Shown: in pieces, positions 6,871-31,186 of the stretch
Numbering within the stretch: the stretch's first letter is position 1
Layout of the letters: every line of letters starts with the position of its first letter
NCBI RefSeq assembly: GCF_017377775.1
Contig: NZ_JAFVLN010000017.1
Span: 62,001-126,000 of the forward strand
Length of the DNA: 64,000 nucleotides
Reading direction: 5' to 3'
DNA from: Streptomyces sp. VRA16 Mangrove soil
GTDB lineage: Bacteria > Actinomycetota > Actinomycetes > Streptomycetales > Streptomycetaceae
Program-made: the position numbers and the translations under genes
The notes under the pieces: model-generated
The model's database searches: none
Told to the model about the DNA's origin: nothing
Seen by the model: the letters and a program-made list of their open reading frames with translations, nothing else

Positions 6871-8721
6871 TCAGTCGTCTTCGCTGTCGCCGAAGTCGGG
6901 GCGGACGTCCCGGGCGGCCATGATCTCGTCGTTGGAGGTGCCGGCGGCGACCATCGGCCACACCATGGCGTCCTCGTGGACGATGAAGTCGATCACGACC
7001 GGGCGGTCGTTGATCGCGTTCGCCTCCTCGATGCACTTGTCGAGGTCCTCGGCCCGCTCACAGCGGATCGAGTAGCAGCCCATCGCCTCGGACAGCTTCA
7101 CGAAGTCCGGGACGCGCGTGCCGTTGTTGGGCGGGGTCTCGCCGTCCGGGCCCGCGTGCAGCACGGTGTTGGAGTAGCGCTGGTTGTAGAAGAGCGTCTG
7201 CCACTGCCGGACCATGCCCAGGGCGCCGTTGTTGATGATGGCGACCTTGATCGGGATGTTGTTCAGGGCGCAGGTGGTCAGCTCCTGATTGGTCATCTGG
7301 AAGCAGCCGTCGCCGTCGATCGCCCAGACGGTCTGGTCCGGGGCACCGGCCTTGGCACCCATCGCGGCGGGGACCGCGTAGCCCATGGTCCCGGCGCCGC
7401 CCGAGTTCAGCCAGGTCGCCGGCTTCTCGTACTGGATGTAGTGCGCGGCCCACATCTGGTGCTGGCCGACGCCCGCCGCGAAGATCGTGTCCGCGGGGGC
7501 GAGCTGCCCGATCCGCTCGATGACCTGCTGCGGGGAGAGCGAGCCGTCCGCCGGCTGGTCGTAGCCGAGCGGGTAGGTCTCGCGCCAGCGGTTGAGGTCG
7601 TTCCACCAGGCGCTGTAGTCGCCCTGGTGGCCCTCGCTGTGCTCCTTCTGCACGGCCTGGATCAGGTCGGCGATGACCTCGCGGGCGTCACCGACGATCG
7701 GCACGTCGGCGGCGCGGTTCTTGCCGATCTCCGCCGGGTCGATGTCCGCGTGGACGATCTTGGCGAACGGCGCGAAGCTGTCCAGGTTGCCGGTGACACG
7801 GTCGTCGAAGCGGGCGCCGAGGGCGACGATCAGGTCGGCCTTCTGCAGCGCGGTGACGGCGGTGACCGCACCGTGCATGCCCGGCATTCCCACGTGCAGC
7901 GGGTGGCTGTCGGGGAACGAACCGAGCGCCATCAGGGTGGTGGTGACGGGCGCTCCGGTGAGCTCGGCGAGGACCTTGAGCTCGGCGGTGGCCTGCGCCT
8001 TGATGACGCCGCCACCCACGTACAGGACGGGCCGCTTCGCACTTGTGATCAGCTTCGCGGCCTCGCGGATCTGCTTGGCGTGCGGCTTGGTCACCGGGCG
8101 GTAGCCGGGCAGGTCGTGCTGCGGCGGCCAGGAGAACGTCGTCTGCGCCTGGAGGATGTCCTTCGGGATGTCCACGAGGACCGGGCCGGGACGGCCGGTC
8201 GAGGCGATGTGGAACGCCTGGGCGATCGCCTGCGGAATGTCCTCGGCCTTGGTGACCAGGAAGCTGTGCTTGGTGATCGGCATGGTGATGCCGACGATGT
8301 CCGCCTCCTGGAAGGCGTCCGTGCCGATCGCCTTGGAGACGACCTGGCCGGTGATCGCGACGAGCGGCACCGAGTCCATCATCGCGTCGGCGATCGGCGT
8401 CACCAGGTTGGTCGCACCCGGACCGCTGGTGGCCATGCAGACACCGACCTTGCCGGTGGCCTGCGCGTAACCGGTGGCCGCGTGGCCCGCGCCCTGCTCG
8501 TGACGGACGAGCACGTGGCGCACCCGGCTCGAGTCCATCATCGGGTCGTAGGCGGGAAGGATCGTGCCGCCGGGGATGCCGAATACGGTGTCGGCCCCGA
8601 CCTCCTCAAGCGAGCGAATGAGGGACTTCGCACCCGTGACGTGCTCGACGGGGGCGGACTGCTGTCCTCCGGAACGGGGCCGCGGCTGCGGATGGTGGGC
8701 CCCGGTGGCCTGCTCGGTCAT
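6871..8721 (-). CDS. ilvB: Acetolactate synthase large (catalytic) subunit
   Basis: The ThDP- and FAD-dependent enzyme that condenses pyruvate with pyruvate or 2-oxobutyrate, the committed step of branched-chain amino acid synthesis. The 616 aa run in the order ThDP Pyr domain (catalytic Glu in [10 protein letters not shown]), central FAD-type domain, and PP domain with the GDG...NN ThDP motif (GDGCFQMT ... AIINN). The frame stays open far upstream, but the start is ATG at 8721, with GAAGAG about 7 nt before it. An ATG two codons earlier (8727) is possible but would touch the ribosome-binding site. A leader peptide and attenuator lie upstream. Confidence 0.97.
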
Positions 8722-8811
8722 CGGCATTCTCTTCTCGATGCTGAGGGTTTTTGCGAGGTTTGTGCAGGGTGTTGCGAGTTGTCTGGCGGGTGCGTCCTGT
8801 GCCCGTGCAAC

Positions 8812-8845
8812 AAAAAACCCCTCGTGCCGGGAGGCAAGCGAGGGG
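8812..8845 (-). promoter_or_regulatory. ilvB attenuator (intrinsic terminator in the leader)
   Basis: On the minus strand CCCCTCG (8839-8845) pairs with CGAGGGG (8818-8824), extended by TGCC/GGCA with a 2-nt bulge, and is followed directly by six T (8817-8812). This is a canonical intrinsic terminator, unusual in Streptomyces where U tracts are rare. It lies about 55 nt after the leader peptide stop and 90 nt before the ilvB start. With the leader peptide it forms a classical ribosome-mediated attenuation unit sensing Ile/Leu/Val-tRNA supply. Confidence 0.88.
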
Positions 8846-8899
8846 AGCGCGCCGGGTGCGGTCGCTGGGTTTCCGGTGTCAGGACCGGTCGTCCCAGCT

Positions 8900-8941
8900 T
8901 CAGCCGACGCGCTTTCCAAGTACGAGAATTCGGGTGCGCAT
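8900..8941 (-). CDS. ilvBNC leader peptide (13 aa)
   Basis: An ATG at 8941, preceded by GGGGGGAGGG, opens a 13-codon [16 protein letters not shown], then TGA. It has five branched-chain residues (I, L, V, L, V), four of them consecutive. As I recall, the same leader peptide is described upstream of ilvB in Streptomyces. Stalling on these codons would let an antiterminator form instead of the hairpin at 8818-8845. It overlaps no other gene. A TTGACA at 8973-8978 and a CATAAT at 8998-9003 (minus strand) lie upstream, but I cannot assign a promoter with confidence. Confidence 0.88.
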
Positions 8942-8974
8942 GGCACTGACCCTCCCCCCGGCGCCCATGCACTG

Positions 8975-11833
8975 TCAAGTGGGTGGGACGGGAGTCTCAT
9001 TATGTGAGCGGAGCCCGGGTGCGCCCGCGAACACCGGCTCGGCGGGACCGGTCGGCACCGGGTACTCCCCGGAGGCCAGCGCGCGCCGCAGCCGGTACTC
9101 GTCGAGCGGTCCCGAGAACGCCATGCCCTGCCCGTGCGTGCACCCCATCGCCCGCAGCGCGACCACCTGTTCCGGCAGGTCCACGCCGTCGGCGACGGAG
9201 GTGAGCCCGAGGTCCCCGGCGATCCTGAGCAGCCCGCTGGTGATCTTGTGCAGCCGCGCGGACTCGACGACACCCTCGACGAGCGACCTGTCCAGTTTCA
9301 GTACGTCGACGGGGAGGCGGCGCAGCGCCGTGATGGCCGCATAGCCGCTGCCGAATCCGTCCAGCGCGATCCGGACACCGAGCCTCCGCAAGGCGGTCAG
9401 ACGTCGTTCCAGCTCGTCCAGCGGGACCCTGGGGTCGCTGTCGGCCAGCTCGATGATGAGCGCGCCCGACGGCAGCCCGTGCCGGGTCAGCAGCGCCTCG
9501 ATCGAGCCGAGCGGCATCGCCCGGTCGAGCAGTCTGCGGGCCGTGATCCGGACCGCGACGGGCGTCGCATGGCCGCTGTGCCCGCGCTCGGCGGCCTGCT
9601 CGACGGCCTCCTCCAGCATCCAGCGCCCCAGCTCGGCGGTGCGCTCGCTGTCGTCGGCCACCCGCAGGAACTCGGCCGGCGTGAACAGGATGCCCTGCGA
9701 GGAGCGCCATCGGGCCTGGGCGGCGACCGCCGTGATCCGGCCGTCGTCGAGCGAGACGACCGGCTGGTGCAGCAGCGCGAACTCGCCGTCGTGCAGCGCC
9801 GTGCGCAGCCGGGTGGCCAGCTCGGCCTTCCGTACGACATCGGCCTGCATCTGGGGCGCGTACAGCTCTACTCGCCCTTTGCCGGCCGCCTTGGCCCGGT
9901 ACATCGCCAGGTCCGCGTTGCGCAGCAGCTCGCCCGCCGTGACCTCGGGTTCCGCGAACGCGACGCCGATGGAGGCGGCGACGCGCACGTTGTCGTTCCC
10001 GTCGATCGTGTACGGCTGGGAGAGCGCGATTCTCAGACGGTCGGCCAGCTCGTAGATGTGCTGTTCCCTGGCGGTGTGGTCGCGGCCTCCGTCGCCGACG
10101 ATCAGTGCCGCGAACTCGTCACCGCCGAGACGAGCCGCGGTGTCTCCGGAACGTACGGAGTCGGCCAGCCTTCTTGCCGCCTGCACGAGCAGTTCGTCGC
10201 CCGCCTGGTGGCCGATCGTGTCGTTGACCTGCTTGAAGCCGTCGAGGTCGATGAAGAGCACGGCGGTGCCCCGGTCGGTGGCCCGCCGCCCGGTCAGGGC
10301 CTGGCTGACCCGCTTGGTGAACAGGGCCCGGTTGGGCAGGTCGGTGAGCGGATCGTGCTCGGCGTTGTGCTGCAACTGCGCCTGGAGGCGCACTCGTTCC
10401 GTGACGTCTCTGCTGTTGAGGATCAGGCCGCCGTGGTGGCGGTTGATCGTCGACTCCACGTTCAGCCAGGCTCCGGTGCCGGACCGGAAGCGGCACTCGA
10501 TACGGGTGGTGGGCTCCTCGATCTGGCTCGCGGCGAGGAACCTGCGGATCTCGTGCACCACGCGCCCGAGGTCCTCGGGGTGGATGAGCGAGGCGAGCTC
10601 AGAGCCGACGAGCTCCTCCGCCTCGCGTCCGTAGACCCCGGCGGCGGCCGGGCTGACGTACCTCAGGATCCCGTTCGGCGCGGCGATCATGATGACGTCG
10701 CTGGAACCCTGCACCAGGGACCGGAAGTGGTTCTCCTTCTGGGCCAGTTCCTGGGTCAGCGTGATGTTGTCGATCAGCATGATGCCCTGGCGCACGACCA
10801 GGGCGAGCACAACCGTGCAGGCCGTGAAGAGGACGATCCGGTCGACACTGTGCCCGTTCAGGACGTTGTAGAGAATCCCCAGCGTGCAGACGGCGGCGGC
10901 CAGATACGGCGTCAGCGCGGCCAGTGAGCCGGAGATGGGGCGGGTGTAGTTGACCTGGTAGCGCGGTGCCGGGCTCTCGGGGTGCTCCTCCGGGTGCCCG
11001 CTGCCTCTCGCCCCCACCCAGGGCGCGTACGCCAGCAGCAGGGAGCCGGCGAACCAGCCCGCGTCGAGGATCTCCCCCGAGCGGTACGTGGCGTGCAGCA
11101 GCGGCGAGGTGAACAGGGCGTCGCACATCACGGTCAGCGCGAGCGCGCCGATCGCCGTGTTCACCGCCGTGCGGTTGCCCGGCGAGCGGCGGAAGTGCAG
11201 GGCCAGGACCATGCTGACGAGCGCGATGTCGAGCAGCGGATAGGCGAGCGAGAGCGCCGTTCTGCTGACGCTCTGTCCCTCGAACTCGGCGGTGTGCGCG
11301 AGGGCGAGGCTCCAGGAGAGCGTGATCAGGGAGCCGGCGATCAGCCAGGCGTCGAGCGCGAGGCAGATCCAGCCGGCCTTCGTCATGGGCCGTTTGGCGA
11401 GGACGAGCAGGCCGATGATGGCGGGCGGCGCGAAGCAGAGGAAGAACAGGTCGGCCAGGCTCGGATCGGGCACGGGCTCATGGAGGATGACCTCGTACCA
11501 GCCCCACACCCCATTGCCGAGCGCGGCCATGAGGGAGGAGGCCGCGAACAGAAGCCAGGCGGGTCGAAAGCGGCTGCGCCGGCTGCGGGCGTACAGGAAG
11601 TTGGAGACGGCTGCGACGGCGGCGGCGAGGCTCAGGCCGAAGTCGCCCATGAAGAGGGCGATCCGGTCGGACCCCCAGCCCAGCGCGGAGCCGACGGCGT
11701 ACCCCGCGCACACCAGGACGAGCACCAGCTGCGGCCCCACGCCGGCGCCGCGCTCGGGGGCGCGGACGGGCATCGGCCCTCCCGCGCGCAAGGGCGCACC
11801 GAGCGCCGCGGTCGACGCCGCCTTGGCAGTCAC
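8975..11833 (-). CDS. Membrane PAS-GGDEF-EAL protein with intact GGDEF and degenerate EAL
   Basis: A 952-aa c-di-GMP signalling protein. About residues 35-360 are a multi-pass membrane sensor, then PAS (370-480), GGDEF (485-660) and EAL (670-940). The cyclase motif is intact (GGDEF 570-574), and an RxxD inhibitory site (RSGD, 561-564) sits exactly 5 residues before it. The EAL domain has lost its key residues: EAL reads AAQ (704-706), the DDFG motif reads LDGFG, AEGVE reads ADGVD. I infer a diguanylate cyclase with a non-catalytic EAL. I chose GTG at 11833. The open frame reaches ATG at 12031, but that 66-codon extension lacks the usual codon bias. Confidence 0.85.
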
Positions 11834-12286
11834 CGGGCCGCCTCGGTCCGTCGGGCCGCCCCCGTGTCCTGCCGGCCCTGCCTGGTGTGCGGTTGTTTCC
11901 TGCGGCCGCCGCGGGGTCCGCTCCGGTGCGTACGACTCCTGCGGCAGCCGGGACTTCGCCCGTGCGTGGGTGTGTGGGACACCAAACAAGACAGACGTCG
12001 GCGACCCCGCCGCGTCGGATCGTTCGCCCATAGGCCGTGCATCGCCCGTCGCCCCCCTCGCAGTCCGTCACTCGTCCCCGGCGCCGCATGGTGCTGAGCG
12101 GCGCTGCCCCAGTCGGGACGATACACCAGTCTCGTCACTCAGGGACATAGTTCCTCTACTCTCCGTGACGACCAGCGGCGATGACGGCACGGGGTGCAGC
12201 CGGCCGGGCGCGGAGCGTCAGCGCCCAACGGCGGGCGGCCGCACGACAGTTGTCCGTGGGGCCGCCGGGACTCGGGTCAACTGGCG
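11834..12286. other. 453-bp region upstream of the GGDEF-EAL gene
   Basis: This contains the probable 5' region of the c-di-GMP gene, whose alternative start at 12031 would use part of it. It also holds a possible 26-codon small ORF (12068-12148) with a good ribosome-binding site. I saw no clear terminator after the hydroxyacid dehydrogenase gene. No other gene was recognised. Confidence 0.5.
12068..12148 (-). CDS. Possible small ORF / leader peptide (26 aa)
   Basis: An ATG at 12148 preceded by AGAGGA at close to ideal spacing opens a 26-codon frame beginning MSLSDETGVSSRLGQRR and ending in TGA at 12068. It lies about 235 nt ahead of the GTG start chosen for the c-di-GMP gene, on the same strand. 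It resembles no family I know. It may be a regulatory upstream ORF or chance. The evidence is only the ribosome-binding site and position. Confidence 0.25.
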   Translation of the reverse strand: MSLSDETGVSSRLGQRRSAPCGAGDE

Positions 12287-28600: not shown

Positions 28601-31186
28601 TCAGGCCCGCGGCTCGTCGCCCGGCACCGCGGGCAGCGCCGCGGCAGCCCGCTGCCACCCCCGGTCCCCCCGGGCCCGCAGCCACGCCGTCGTCTCGTCC
28701 GGCGGCATCGCGGCGGCGACGAGCCACCCCTGCACCGCGTCACATCCCAGATCCCGCAGCCGCTCCCACGTCTCGTCGTCCTCGACCCCCTCCGCGACGA
28801 CGAGCAGCCCCAGCGAGTGCGCCAGATCGACCGTGCACCGCACGATCTCCGCGTCCTCGTTGTCCACCGCGAGCCGGGCCACGAACGACCGGTCGATCTT
28901 CAGCTCGCTCACCGGGAGGCGTCGCAGGTGCACCAGCGACGAGTACCCGGTCCCGAAGTCGTCGAGCGACATCTTCACCCCGTGCCCGGTGAGACCCGCG
29001 AGCGTGTCCGCGGCCCGCTGCGGGTCCTCCAGCAGCACGTGCTCCGTTATCTCCAGCTGCAGCGACCCGGCCGGCACACCGTGCCGCGCGAGCCGCGCCG
29101 CGACCGCTCCCGCGAACCCGGGCGTGTGCACATCGCGCGGCGACACGTTCACCGCGACCGGCACGTGCAGTCCCTGCGCCCGCCAGCGCGCGACCTGCGC
29201 GAGCGCCGTCTCCAGGACGTACTCGGTCAGGTGCGGCATGAGTCCCGACGACTCGGCGATGGCGATGAACTCGTCCGGCGGAACCTTCCCTCGCTCGGGA
29301 TGCACCCACCGTACGAGCGCTTCGAGACCCGCCACCTGCCCGTCGAAGCGGACCTTCGGCTGGTAGTGCAGCTCGACGTCGCCGGCGTCGAGCGCGCGCC
29401 GCAGATCGCCCAACAGGCCGAGCCGGTCGGGGGTGTTGGAGTCCCGCTTCGACTCGTAGACCTCGACGCCCGTACGGTCCCGCTTCGCCTGGTACATCGC
29501 GACATCGGCCCGGCGCAGCAGTCCCTCCGCGTCGAGCGCGTGGTCGGGGAAGACGGCGAGCCCCGCGCTCGCCTCCAACACCAGCGTCAGCCCGTCGAGA
29601 TCGAGCGGTGAGCCGAGCGCCGCCACGAGATTGCGGGCCACCCGCGACGCGGACGTCGTGGAGTCGGCGACCGGGAGCAGCACGGCGAACTCGTCACCGC
29701 CGAGCCGCGCGGCCTCCGCCCCGCGCGGCAGCGCGGCTCTGAGTCGGTCCGCGATCTGCAACAGGAGCCGGTCACCGGCGAGATGGCCGAGTGTGTCGTT
29801 GACCGAACGGAACCGGTCCAGGTCGATCAGCATCAGCGCGCTGCGCGCCCCGATCCGCTCGGCGTCGTCGAGCGCGGTCCACGTCCGCTCCAGCAGCCAC
29901 TGCCGGTTGGGCAGTCCTGTCAGCGGGTCGCGCAGCTGCTCCTCGGCGCGGGCCCGCGCGATCCACAGCGTCGAGTCGAGCGCGATCAGCGGGATCGCGA
30001 ACAGCGGCAGCAGCACGGGCCGGGCGATCGCGACGACGCAGACCAGGGGCGCGATGCCGAGCAGCGCGACGCCGACCAGGCCCTGTCGCATCAGCGCGGT
30101 GCGGGCGACGGTCGGCAGTCCCGAGGTGCGCGGCGCGTGCACGTACCAGAGCAGGGTGCGGGTGACGAGCAGGTAAGCGGCCGCGACGAGCACGACCTCG
30201 GGCGCCGTGTAGAGGTCCCAGGTCTCCGGTTTCCACGGGGACTCGACGGACGGTACGAGGCCGAACGCGGCCAGGACGAGGGCGCCGGCCCCGATGCCGA
30301 GGATGTCGACCGCGCCGTGCAGCATGCCCTGGCGCCAGCGGTGTCTGCGGGCGGCGCCGACGAGCACGACGACGGTGAGGCTGACCATTCCGGCGGGCAC
30401 CCACCCGTACAGGAGCAGCACGGCGAGGGTGAGGGCGGCTCCGGAGCCGGTGCCGCCCCACCAGCGGTCGCGGCCGAGCGCGACGAGGTGGCCGACGATG
30501 ATGCCGGTCAGGATCGCGAGCGACCAGCCGGCGACGCCGGACGGGAAGAGCGCGTGGCCGGCGGTGAAGGCGCGGTAGAACCCGGCGCCCAGGACCACCG
30601 CGGCGAGCGCGACAACGGCGCCGGGCAGCAGCGGCAGCGCCGCGATCCGCGTGGTCTCGGGCGGTCCGCCTTGGTGGTTGCGTGCGGGGGTGGCCACGCC
30701 GACGCGGCCGCCGGTGGGCAGACCGGTGGGCGGAAGTGTCTGTTCCGCGCCCGCGGTCATGCCGGTGGTGACGGGACCCTGAGCCGTGGGGCCGCCGGAC
30801 TTCGCGCGGCCGTGCCGCAGGCCGCTGGACGCCCGTCCGGCCGGGGCGCTCTGGATGCCCCGGGCACCCCGGACGACCGAACTGCCGGGCGCCGCCGGGG
30901 CCGAGGCGCCGTGCGCGCCGTCGGCCGCACCGGGGGTGGCACCCGCGGCGCGGGGCTCCCCCTGTATCCGGTCCGCGCGGAGCCGGGCGATCCCCCGCCC
31001 GCTCTCGCGCCACCAATTGCGCCAGTTCACCACACCACCGCGCTCGTTCTCCCCGTGCTCCCCGTGACCGCTGTCGCCGTCCCCGGCGCCGCCCGTGCCG
31101 TCGTCGGCACGACGGGCCGTGGTGCGCCGCAGCCGTCGGCGCGGGCGCAGCGGTGAGTCCGGGGCGGCGCTCTCGGTCGGTTCCAT
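28601..31186 (-). CDS. rmdB: Membrane GGDEF-EAL c-di-GMP enzyme, RmdB-like
   Basis: An 861-aa protein placed, from memory, at the position of S. coelicolor RmdB (SCO5495, beside ligA), a c-di-GMP phosphodiesterase controlling development. Residues 1-180 are disordered and Gly/Ala/Arg-rich. About 183-410 hold several TM helices, then GGDEF (motif 496-500 intact) and EAL. The EAL motifs are complete: EALVRW (622-627), VNVSPRDV, LEITEH, DDFGTGYS, KIDRSFV, AEGVE. The RxxD inhibitory site reads RGAE, so product inhibition is probably lost. ATG 31186 has AGAGGGA upstream; the frame is open further but without support. Confidence 0.88.
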   Translation of the reverse strand: MEPTESAAPDSPLRPRRRLRRTTARRADDGTGGAGDGDSGHGEHGENERGGVVNWRNWWRESGRGIARLRADRIQGEPRAAGATPGAADGAHGASAPAAPGSSVVRGARGIQSAPAGRASSGLRHGRAKSGGPTAQGPVTTGMTAGAEQTLPPTGLPTGGRVGVATPARNHQGGPPETTRIAALPLLPGAVVALAAVVLGAGFYRAFTAGHALFPSGVAGWSLAILTGIIVGHLVALGRDRWWGGTGSGAALTLAVLLLYGWVPAGMVSLTVVVLVGAARRHRWRQGMLHGAVDILGIGAGALVLAAFGLVPSVESPWKPETWDLYTAPEVVLVAAAYLLVTRTLLWYVHAPRTSGLPTVARTALMRQGLVGVALLGIAPLVCVVAIARPVLLPLFAIPLIALDSTLWIARARAEEQLRDPLTGLPNRQWLLERTWTALDDAERIGARSALMLIDLDRFRSVNDTLGHLAGDRLLLQIADRLRAALPRGAEAARLGGDEFAVLLPVADSTTSASRVARNLVAALGSPLDLDGLTLVLEASAGLAVFPDHALDAEGLLRRADVAMYQAKRDRTGVEVYESKRDSNTPDRLGLLGDLRRALDAGDVELHYQPKVRFDGQVAGLEALVRWVHPERGKVPPDEFIAIAESSGLMPHLTEYVLETALAQVARWRAQGLHVPVAVNVSPRDVHTPGFAGAVAARLARHGVPAGSLQLEITEHVLLEDPQRAADTLAGLTGHGVKMSLDDFGTGYSSLVHLRRLPVSELKIDRSFVARLAVDNEDAEIVRCTVDLAHSLGLLVVAEGVEDDETWERLRDLGCDAVQGWLVAAAMPPDETTAWLRARGDRGWQRAAAALPAVPGDEPRA

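Follow-up and report, generated by a model that had tools for sequence, protein, structure and literature searches.

The gene at 8975-11833 on the minus strand of the 64,000-nucleotide window, the whole stretch of Streptomyces sp. VRA16 Mangrove soil DNA that was analysed, is cdgC, a member of the SCO5511 / SVEN_5187 / SSFG_02181 group, and lies directly upstream of ilvB. Its product is most probably (probability about 0.85) a membrane-bound diguanylate cyclase with an I-site, joined to an EAL domain that has lost metal binding and catalysis in steps and has been kept as a folded, non-catalytic and most likely regulatory part. The identity of the gene, the loss of the catalytic residues, the predicted intact fold and continued selection on the domain are supported by the results given below, from which we infer the regulatory role.

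Cyclase activity, an I-site and a degenerate EAL domain are already in print for CdgC orthologues (PMC6205966, PMC7374567), and because these papers report the same features the observation itself is known. The Streptomyces venezuelae CdgC protein (SVEN_5187 / vnz25635) is described as a membrane-bound protein with the architecture 10TM-PAS-PAC-GGDEF-degEAL that synthesizes c-di-GMP in vitro and whose GGDEF domain is required in vivo; deletion of cdgC causes early sporulation, and CdgC was among two cyclases whose deletion altered development under the conditions tested (PMC6205966). The authors proposed that the degenerate EAL domain may bind a ligand or a partner, and left its role open (PMC6205966). 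In S. ghanaensis, SSFG_02181 (CdgC) is reported as an active cyclase with an RxxD I-site and with an EAL motif altered from E to Cys and from L to Gln, in addition to an N-to-Arg change (PMC7374567). The window protein has the TM-PAS-GGDEF-degenerate EAL order in common with both orthologues, and with SSFG_02181 it further shares the I-site and the replacement of E, L and N in the EAL domain, although position 704 is Ala here and Cys there. Control by BldD has been published for cdgC orthologues (PMC7374567); a loose BldD-box pattern gave no match upstream of the window cdgC and single matches in 2 of 14 genes examined.

The features of the locus are as follows.

8975..11833, minus strand: cdgC as first bounded, with a GTG start and 952 amino acids plus stop (translation, Pfam, orthologue papers)
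11834..12031, minus strand: probable extension of the N terminus by 66 codons, starting from an ATG in frame at 12031 (conserved DNA)
11009..11746, minus strand: N-terminal membrane region, residues 30-275, assigned by homology and not by prediction of transmembrane helices
10388..10741, minus strand: PAS domain, residues 365-482 (Pfam PAS families)
9869..10366, minus strand: GGDEF cyclase domain, residues 490-655 (Pfam 2.5e-40, residues 491-653)
10142-10153, minus strand: I-site R561xxD564, read from the sequence
10112-10126, minus strand: GGDEF motif, residues 570-574, read from the sequence
9098..9820, minus strand: degenerate EAL domain, residues 672-912 (Pfam 3.4e-54, residues 675-909)
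8973..8999, minus strand: conserved ilvB control block over the cdgC stop, in which lie the 15-mer TCCCACCCACTTGAC (8974-8988) and a TTGACA hexamer containing the cdgC TGA
8900..8941, minus strand: ilvB leader peptide of 13 codons, present in most orthologue loci listed
6871..8712, minus strand: ilvB, acetolactate synthase large subunit (Pfam TPP_enzyme N/M/C; start codon not fixed)
28601..30742, minus strand: rmdB, with a GGDEF lacking RxxD and an intact EAL (start codon not fixed)

The assignment as cdgC follows from the direct neighbor: SCO5511 is given as the cdgC orthologue and ilvB is SCO5512 (PMC4340878), so that by locus number the two stand side by side in S. coelicolor as they do in the window. 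By Pfam, cdgC is followed by ilvB, the acetolactate synthase small subunit and ketol-acid reductoisomerase, and ilvB adjoins cdgC in all 23 of the 23 named orthologue loci (Streptomyces, Streptantibioticus and Kitasatospora). The remaining hallmarks of the CdgC orthologue group are also present, namely the TM-PAS-GGDEF-EAL order (with the membrane region placed by homology only) and a degenerate EAL domain together with an intact GGDEF domain. The membrane region has been published as 9 or 10 transmembrane helices in orthologues (PMC6205966, PMC7374567).

The cdgC start is probably ATG 12031 and not GTG 11833, which would give a protein of 1018 amino acids. A stop lies 13 codons ahead of ATG 12031 in the window. 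A strict pattern recovered the same DNA block, with a start codon at this position, from 42 of 104 orthologue ORFs (TTG replaces ATG in one) and left the remaining 62 unmatched. The DNA around ATG 12031 (11834-12060, minus strand) is strongly conserved and probably represents the true start and leader.

The GGDEF domain retains the features of an active enzyme. Both the GGDEF motif and the RxxD sequence are intact, as the initial annotation had stated, with R561-S-G-D564 ending five residues ahead of the motif, and the GTP- and metal-binding residues D529, N537, D538 and D546 are present. The motif is found in 110 of 110 orthologue rows, and the I-site R and D in 109, the odd row (L080) being one that starts within the GGDEF domain. 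These residues, together with the in vitro assays of orthologous cyclases (PMC6205966, PMC7374567), support the prediction that the window GGDEF domain is an active cyclase bearing an I-site.

In the EAL domain, by comparison, the loss of catalytic residues goes further than first described. The initial annotation had listed the E of EAL, the DDFG aspartate and the AEGVE glutamate as lost. The first is indeed gone, with A704-A705-Q706 standing where active EALs read E-A-L, and the third likewise, since residues 881-885 read ADGVD and both Glu residues have become Asp. For DDFG the claim holds for the second Asp (D826 to G, within LDGFG at 824-828), whereas the first, D825, is retained. A metal-ligand Asn overlooked at that stage is also lost (N762R). 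The RocR ligands E175, N233, E265, D295, D296 and E352, with roles as given in PMC7911125, correspond to A704, R762, E795, D825, G826 and D885; of the six RocR-type metal ligands, E795 and D825 thus remain, and the other four are lost through E704A, N762R, D826G and E885D. The RocR match starts at model residue 311, equivalent to RocR 141, with an offset of 529 in protein numbering; the pairs A704/E175, R708/R179 and R762/N233 assume no intervening gap and agree with the motif order, and the ligands after R762 were paired by motif. The RocR substrate residues Q161 and R179 are both retained as Q690 and R708, as are K846, D848 and Q902. The domain is accordingly not expected to act as a phosphodiesterase, as was first proposed from the letters of the sequence, and a degenerate EAL is stated for its orthologues too (PMC6205966, PMC7374567). 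It may bind c-di-GMP instead of cutting it, which would fit the retention of Q690, R708, D848 and Q902.

A predicted model of residues 360-930, built on an alignment of 78 sequences (mean pLDDT 91.5, pTM 0.67), keeps the EAL fold and superposes on solved EAL structures, confirming that the motifs are lost and not shifted. The EAL part matches PdeA (3u2e; Z 31.6, 2.1 Å over 255 residues), MorA (4rni; Z 30.7, 2.0 Å) and RocR (3sy8; Z 29.9, 2.0 Å over 251 residues); taken over two or three domains together the rmsd is 7-28 Å, so the interdomain arrangement is not readable from the model. The same GGDEF-EAL order is seen in MorA (4rnh), PA0575 (5m3c) and PA0861 (5xgb), at 28-37% identity to CdgC, and unlike CdgC the first two of these have intact EAL motifs. 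FimX chains (Z about 27-28) and LapD are also found among the fold matches. The GGDEF domains of FimX and LapD are catalytically dead, whereas the GGDEF motif of CdgC is intact. What these two proteins share with CdgC is an EAL fold without catalysis (PMC3989770).

The loss of ligands can be followed across orthologues. These comprised 36 same-genus genomes, 45 additional rows, 38 of which represent other genera of the family (Streptomycetaceae, as the named loci show), the 23 named loci, a sister family (f2, one genome, G037) and another family of the order (f3, four genomes, L045-L048). The family search covered 200 genomes, 198 of them with a match at E 1e-110, and residue-level counts were taken from the 110-row orthologue table. 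A degenerate EAL domain is present in 102 of the 110 rows, of which a few are truncated where the fetched sequence ends (L072 and L073 stop there, and L080 begins mid-GGDEF); three pairs have identical EAL sequences, leaving 99 distinct. The count of 102 leaves out the four f3 rows without an EAL, L067, L062 and L028 (a frameshift with a run of N), with G037 counted apart.

G037 has the full ligand set ENEDDE beside ilvB and is the only row of 110 with all six. In the 5 rows of genera g15 and g18 the EAL glutamate and the second Asp are retained, and the Asn has given way to Ser or Gly. Apart from these and g1, there are 14 genera: in ten the E persists throughout or in the majority of rows, in g16, g17, g29 and g30 it does not, and across the 14 Arg for Asn, Gly for Asp826 and Asp for Glu885 predominate. 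In Streptomyces proper (g1) the E is kept in 1 of 43 rows and Arg762 is found in 43 of 43. Over all 102 degenerate rows, position 704 is A in 35, E in 31, S in 21, T in 5, C in 4, Q in 3, H in 2 and V in 1, while R stands at 762 in 92 rows, G at 826 in 92 and D at 885 in 94. In a tree built from the other domains, with f3 as the root, f2 branches off first, followed by g15/g18, by g28 and finally by all remaining rows, and the stepwise order of ligand loss fits this branching. At support 1.0 the CdgC EALs cluster with that of G037 to the exclusion of 55 other EALs; the degenerate CdgC EALs without G037 group at support 0.62.

The f3 orthologues, which also lie beside ilvB, end after the GGDEF domain and have no EAL. 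Because cdgC adjoins ilvB in f2 and f3 as well, intact, degenerate and absent EAL domains occur at one syntenic locus. At the level of passages, the CdgC literature searched did not yield a comparative series running from intact through decayed and dead to absent, which does not establish its absence from print. Within the family, L067 (G117, a single-contig genome) is missing the EAL core with the gene end still there, and L062 (G242) has a frameshift inside the EAL; with the four f3 genomes, these show that some lineages do without the domain. L067 and L062 constitute a natural test of the need for an EAL. Micromonosporaceae-type TM-PAS-GGDEF-EAL proteins (L130, L131, L133) were set aside as possible outgroup orthologues at this locus: their EAL motifs are intact, but no ilvB lies in the fetched flanks. 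Outside the order, the membrane/sensor region alone reached only 28-38% identity among the matches listed from 246 genomes of the class. Two same-genus genomes carry copies of the TM-PAS-GGDEF or PAS-GGDEF type without an EAL (L049, L050, L051), 39-48% identical, and no ilvB was found near them in the fetched stretches.

Selection on the EAL domain was compared with that on RmdB, the second GGDEF-EAL protein of the window, in 25 genomes (24 of g1 and one of g20). Mean pairwise identity in CdgC is 0.77 for the TM region, 0.87 for PAS, 0.81 for GGDEF and 0.78 for EAL; the RmdB values are 0.72 for TM, 0.90 for GGDEF and 0.94 for EAL. By a plain Nei-Gojobori count with no codon-bias correction, over 300 pairs that are not independent because they are drawn from 25 genomes, median dN/dS is 0.24 for the CdgC EAL and 0.30 for its GGDEF, as against 0.07 and 0.14 for the EAL and GGDEF of RmdB; the CdgC EAL value is 3.5 times that of the live RmdB EAL. 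A second set of 314 pairs reversed the order within CdgC (EAL 0.185, GGDEF 0.156). Because the two pair sets give opposite orders, the two domains are read as about equal, and on this safe reading the dead EAL is constrained about equally to its own GGDEF and much less than the live EAL of RmdB.

At the level of single residues, 73 positions are conserved in at least 75% of the 55 other EALs; in 92 degenerate rows 41 of these are retained, 11 carry one new residue and 21 vary. This comparison dropped 11 of the 110 rows and used the 92 degenerate rows, 6 early-branching rows, G037 and the 55 other EALs. The uniform replacements are Y689H, L706Q, I723L, W750R, N762R, Q767R, D826G, Y836A, F851L, L871I and E885D. 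Changes were counted for 98 rows on a tree of 102 of the 110. No change was found at Q690, one at R750 and two at R708, with five at site 826 and six each at 762 and 885, against an EAL median of 10 and a GGDEF median of 4; several EAL positions show no change at all among the 98 rows. Site 704, that of the catalytic Glu, changed 25 times, and K846 (14) and D825 (10) are not slow sites. Because the rows share ancestry, residues counted as kept are partly just inherited, and the free variation at 704 on the same tree serves as an internal control for this effect.

Conservation at the extreme end of the gene has a different origin. A DNA block, TGAGACTCCCGTCCCACCCACTTGACA, overlaps the last cdgC codons in 64 of 74 orthologue rows by pattern, 34 of them with the exact 15-mer, and is missing from ten (L055, L056, L059, L064, L065, L069, L077, L078, L095 and L096); CTTGACA is kept in 73 of the 74 rows with the gene end fetched. 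Ten of the 64 block-bearing rows have no peptide tail, the frame differing or ending earlier (for example L011, L042, L057 and L091). Because the block persists where the tail is absent, conservation of the last CdgC residues is attributed to the control region of ilvB and not to CdgC function. A conserved C-terminal peptide motif, xH/NxETxVPPT/A, seen even in the orthologue without the EAL core, was therefore rejected, the conserved thing being DNA. When the genome from which the window comes was searched for DNA that would encode a tail of this kind, 2 places were found, one of which is cdgC. The sequence TCCCACCCACTTGAC is identical to the motif under the NdgR ChIP-seq peak 6002862-6002876 of S. 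coelicolor (PMC4340878, Table 1), where ilvB is listed as an NdgR target (PMC4340878); the peak is paired with ilvB by position and order. Leader peptides of ilvB of the kind found downstream have been predicted, and in a cited S. coelicolor test codon changes were without effect (PMC1262725). An Rfam scan of the window at the gathering threshold gave 0 matches, and a sigma-70 consensus scan of 8700-9100 gave no promoter-like site; a putative -35 element at the cdgC end is suggested by the TTGACA and its position.

RmdB, which like CdgC is a GGDEF-EAL protein and has been published as membrane-bound (PMC6205966), shows the opposite state, as the initial annotation had noted. Its gene lies 16.8 kb from cdgC, its GGDEF is present with no RxxD at the place of the I-site (the register reads P-R-G-A, position -9 being P and position -6 being A), and its EAL is intact. 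RxxD was found in 0 of 25 RmdB rows and in two of three outer rows (G037 and G064). In Streptomyces, RmdB is thus missing the I-site present in outer relatives, just as CdgC is missing the EAL site present in G037. RmdB thus mirrors CdgC: its slowest domain is the intact EAL and it has no RxxD, whereas CdgC keeps the I-site and has lost the EAL site.

The proposed mechanism can be set out against these data. The GGDEF domain of membrane-bound CdgC would make c-di-GMP, an activity assayed in orthologues and predicted here, and would be inhibited through the I-site. The EAL domain would descend from a phosphodiesterase-type EAL whose metal binding and catalysis were lost in successive steps during the history of the family, and would have been retained after its inactivation as a folded part that regulates the feedback-inhibited cyclase. 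This regulation could proceed, at about equal odds, through nucleotide binding in the former active-site pocket or through the holding of a partner or dimer. Against a retained regulatory domain stand its much faster evolution than that of the RmdB EAL (mean identity 0.78 vs 0.94), its absence or damage in G117, G242 and the four f3 genomes, and the replacement of R708 on two occasions, by Cys in g18 and by His in L089 and L127, which have identical sequence.

One tentative version makes the dead EAL a metal-free receptor for c-di-GMP (or pGpG/GTP) that would add a second feedback loop beside the I-site, with Arg762 in the former metal site and Gln690, Arg708, Asp848 and Gln902 holding the nucleotide. 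Consistent with such a pocket, Q690 is kept in 102 of the 102 degenerate rows, R708 in 98 and Q902 in 92 while E704 drifts, and N762R, D826G, E885D and W750R were replaced and then kept. The degenerate EALs of FimX and LapD can bind c-di-GMP (PMC3989770), and the same type of binding is putative in CdgC given its retained substrate-contact residues. However, L706 of the EAL motif became Q and Y689 became H, and the R762 side chain is placed in the metal site by presumption; the arginine could equally close the pocket. That a resident arginine (N762R, beside D826G and E885D) replaced the EAL metal and so created a metal-free nucleotide receptor controlling the live cyclase of the same chain is a more speculative proposal, and a rather doubtful one.

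Alternatively, and also only as a possibility, the domain may be kept as a protein-protein surface, for homodimerization or for docking of RmdB, with the pocket as a remnant. Bacterial two-hybrid assays are reported to detect both CdgC self-interaction and a CdgC-RmdB interaction (PMC13232838), though RmdB may contact another part of CdgC. In 26 of 29 genomes the two genes share a contig, with no more than about 35 kb between them; the exceptions are the drafts G017 and G032, in which their contigs differ, and G012, in which about 4.5 Mb separates them. This linkage, however, may reflect shared history only. The newly conserved R675, R710, E721, R811 and R870 of CdgC would, if exposed, suit a surface, whereas the presence of the pocket-motif residues Q690, R708, G828 and G903 among the slowest sites is unlike a pure surface role.

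It is unlikely that the EAL is merely decaying and serves nothing but the stability of the protein. It does evolve faster than an active EAL, several of its catalytic positions vary freely, and 6 of 110 rows have it damaged or lack it, while a seventh (L028) contains a run of N; against this, the degenerate domain persists in 102 rows, its dN/dS of 0.24 is near that of its own GGDEF, and several positions are unchanged among the 98 rows. Weak residual phosphodiesterase activity is highly improbable, since E795, D825, K846 and Q902 are still present but 4 of 6 metal ligands of RocR, among them the equivalents of E175 and N233 (PMC7911125), have been lost, and orthologues made c-di-GMP in vitro (PMC6205966, PMC7374567).

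For a cyclase with a folded, catalytically dead and most likely regulatory EAL domain, the present finding confirms the published CdgC annotation apart from the comparative series. That series, running from intact through partly decayed and dead to absent beside ilvB, provides natural variants on the loss of catalysis and on the role that remains. Should the arginine-for-metal reading prove true, the enzyme, its intermediates and its absence would all be at hand at a single locus, and the conversion would be replayable step by step.
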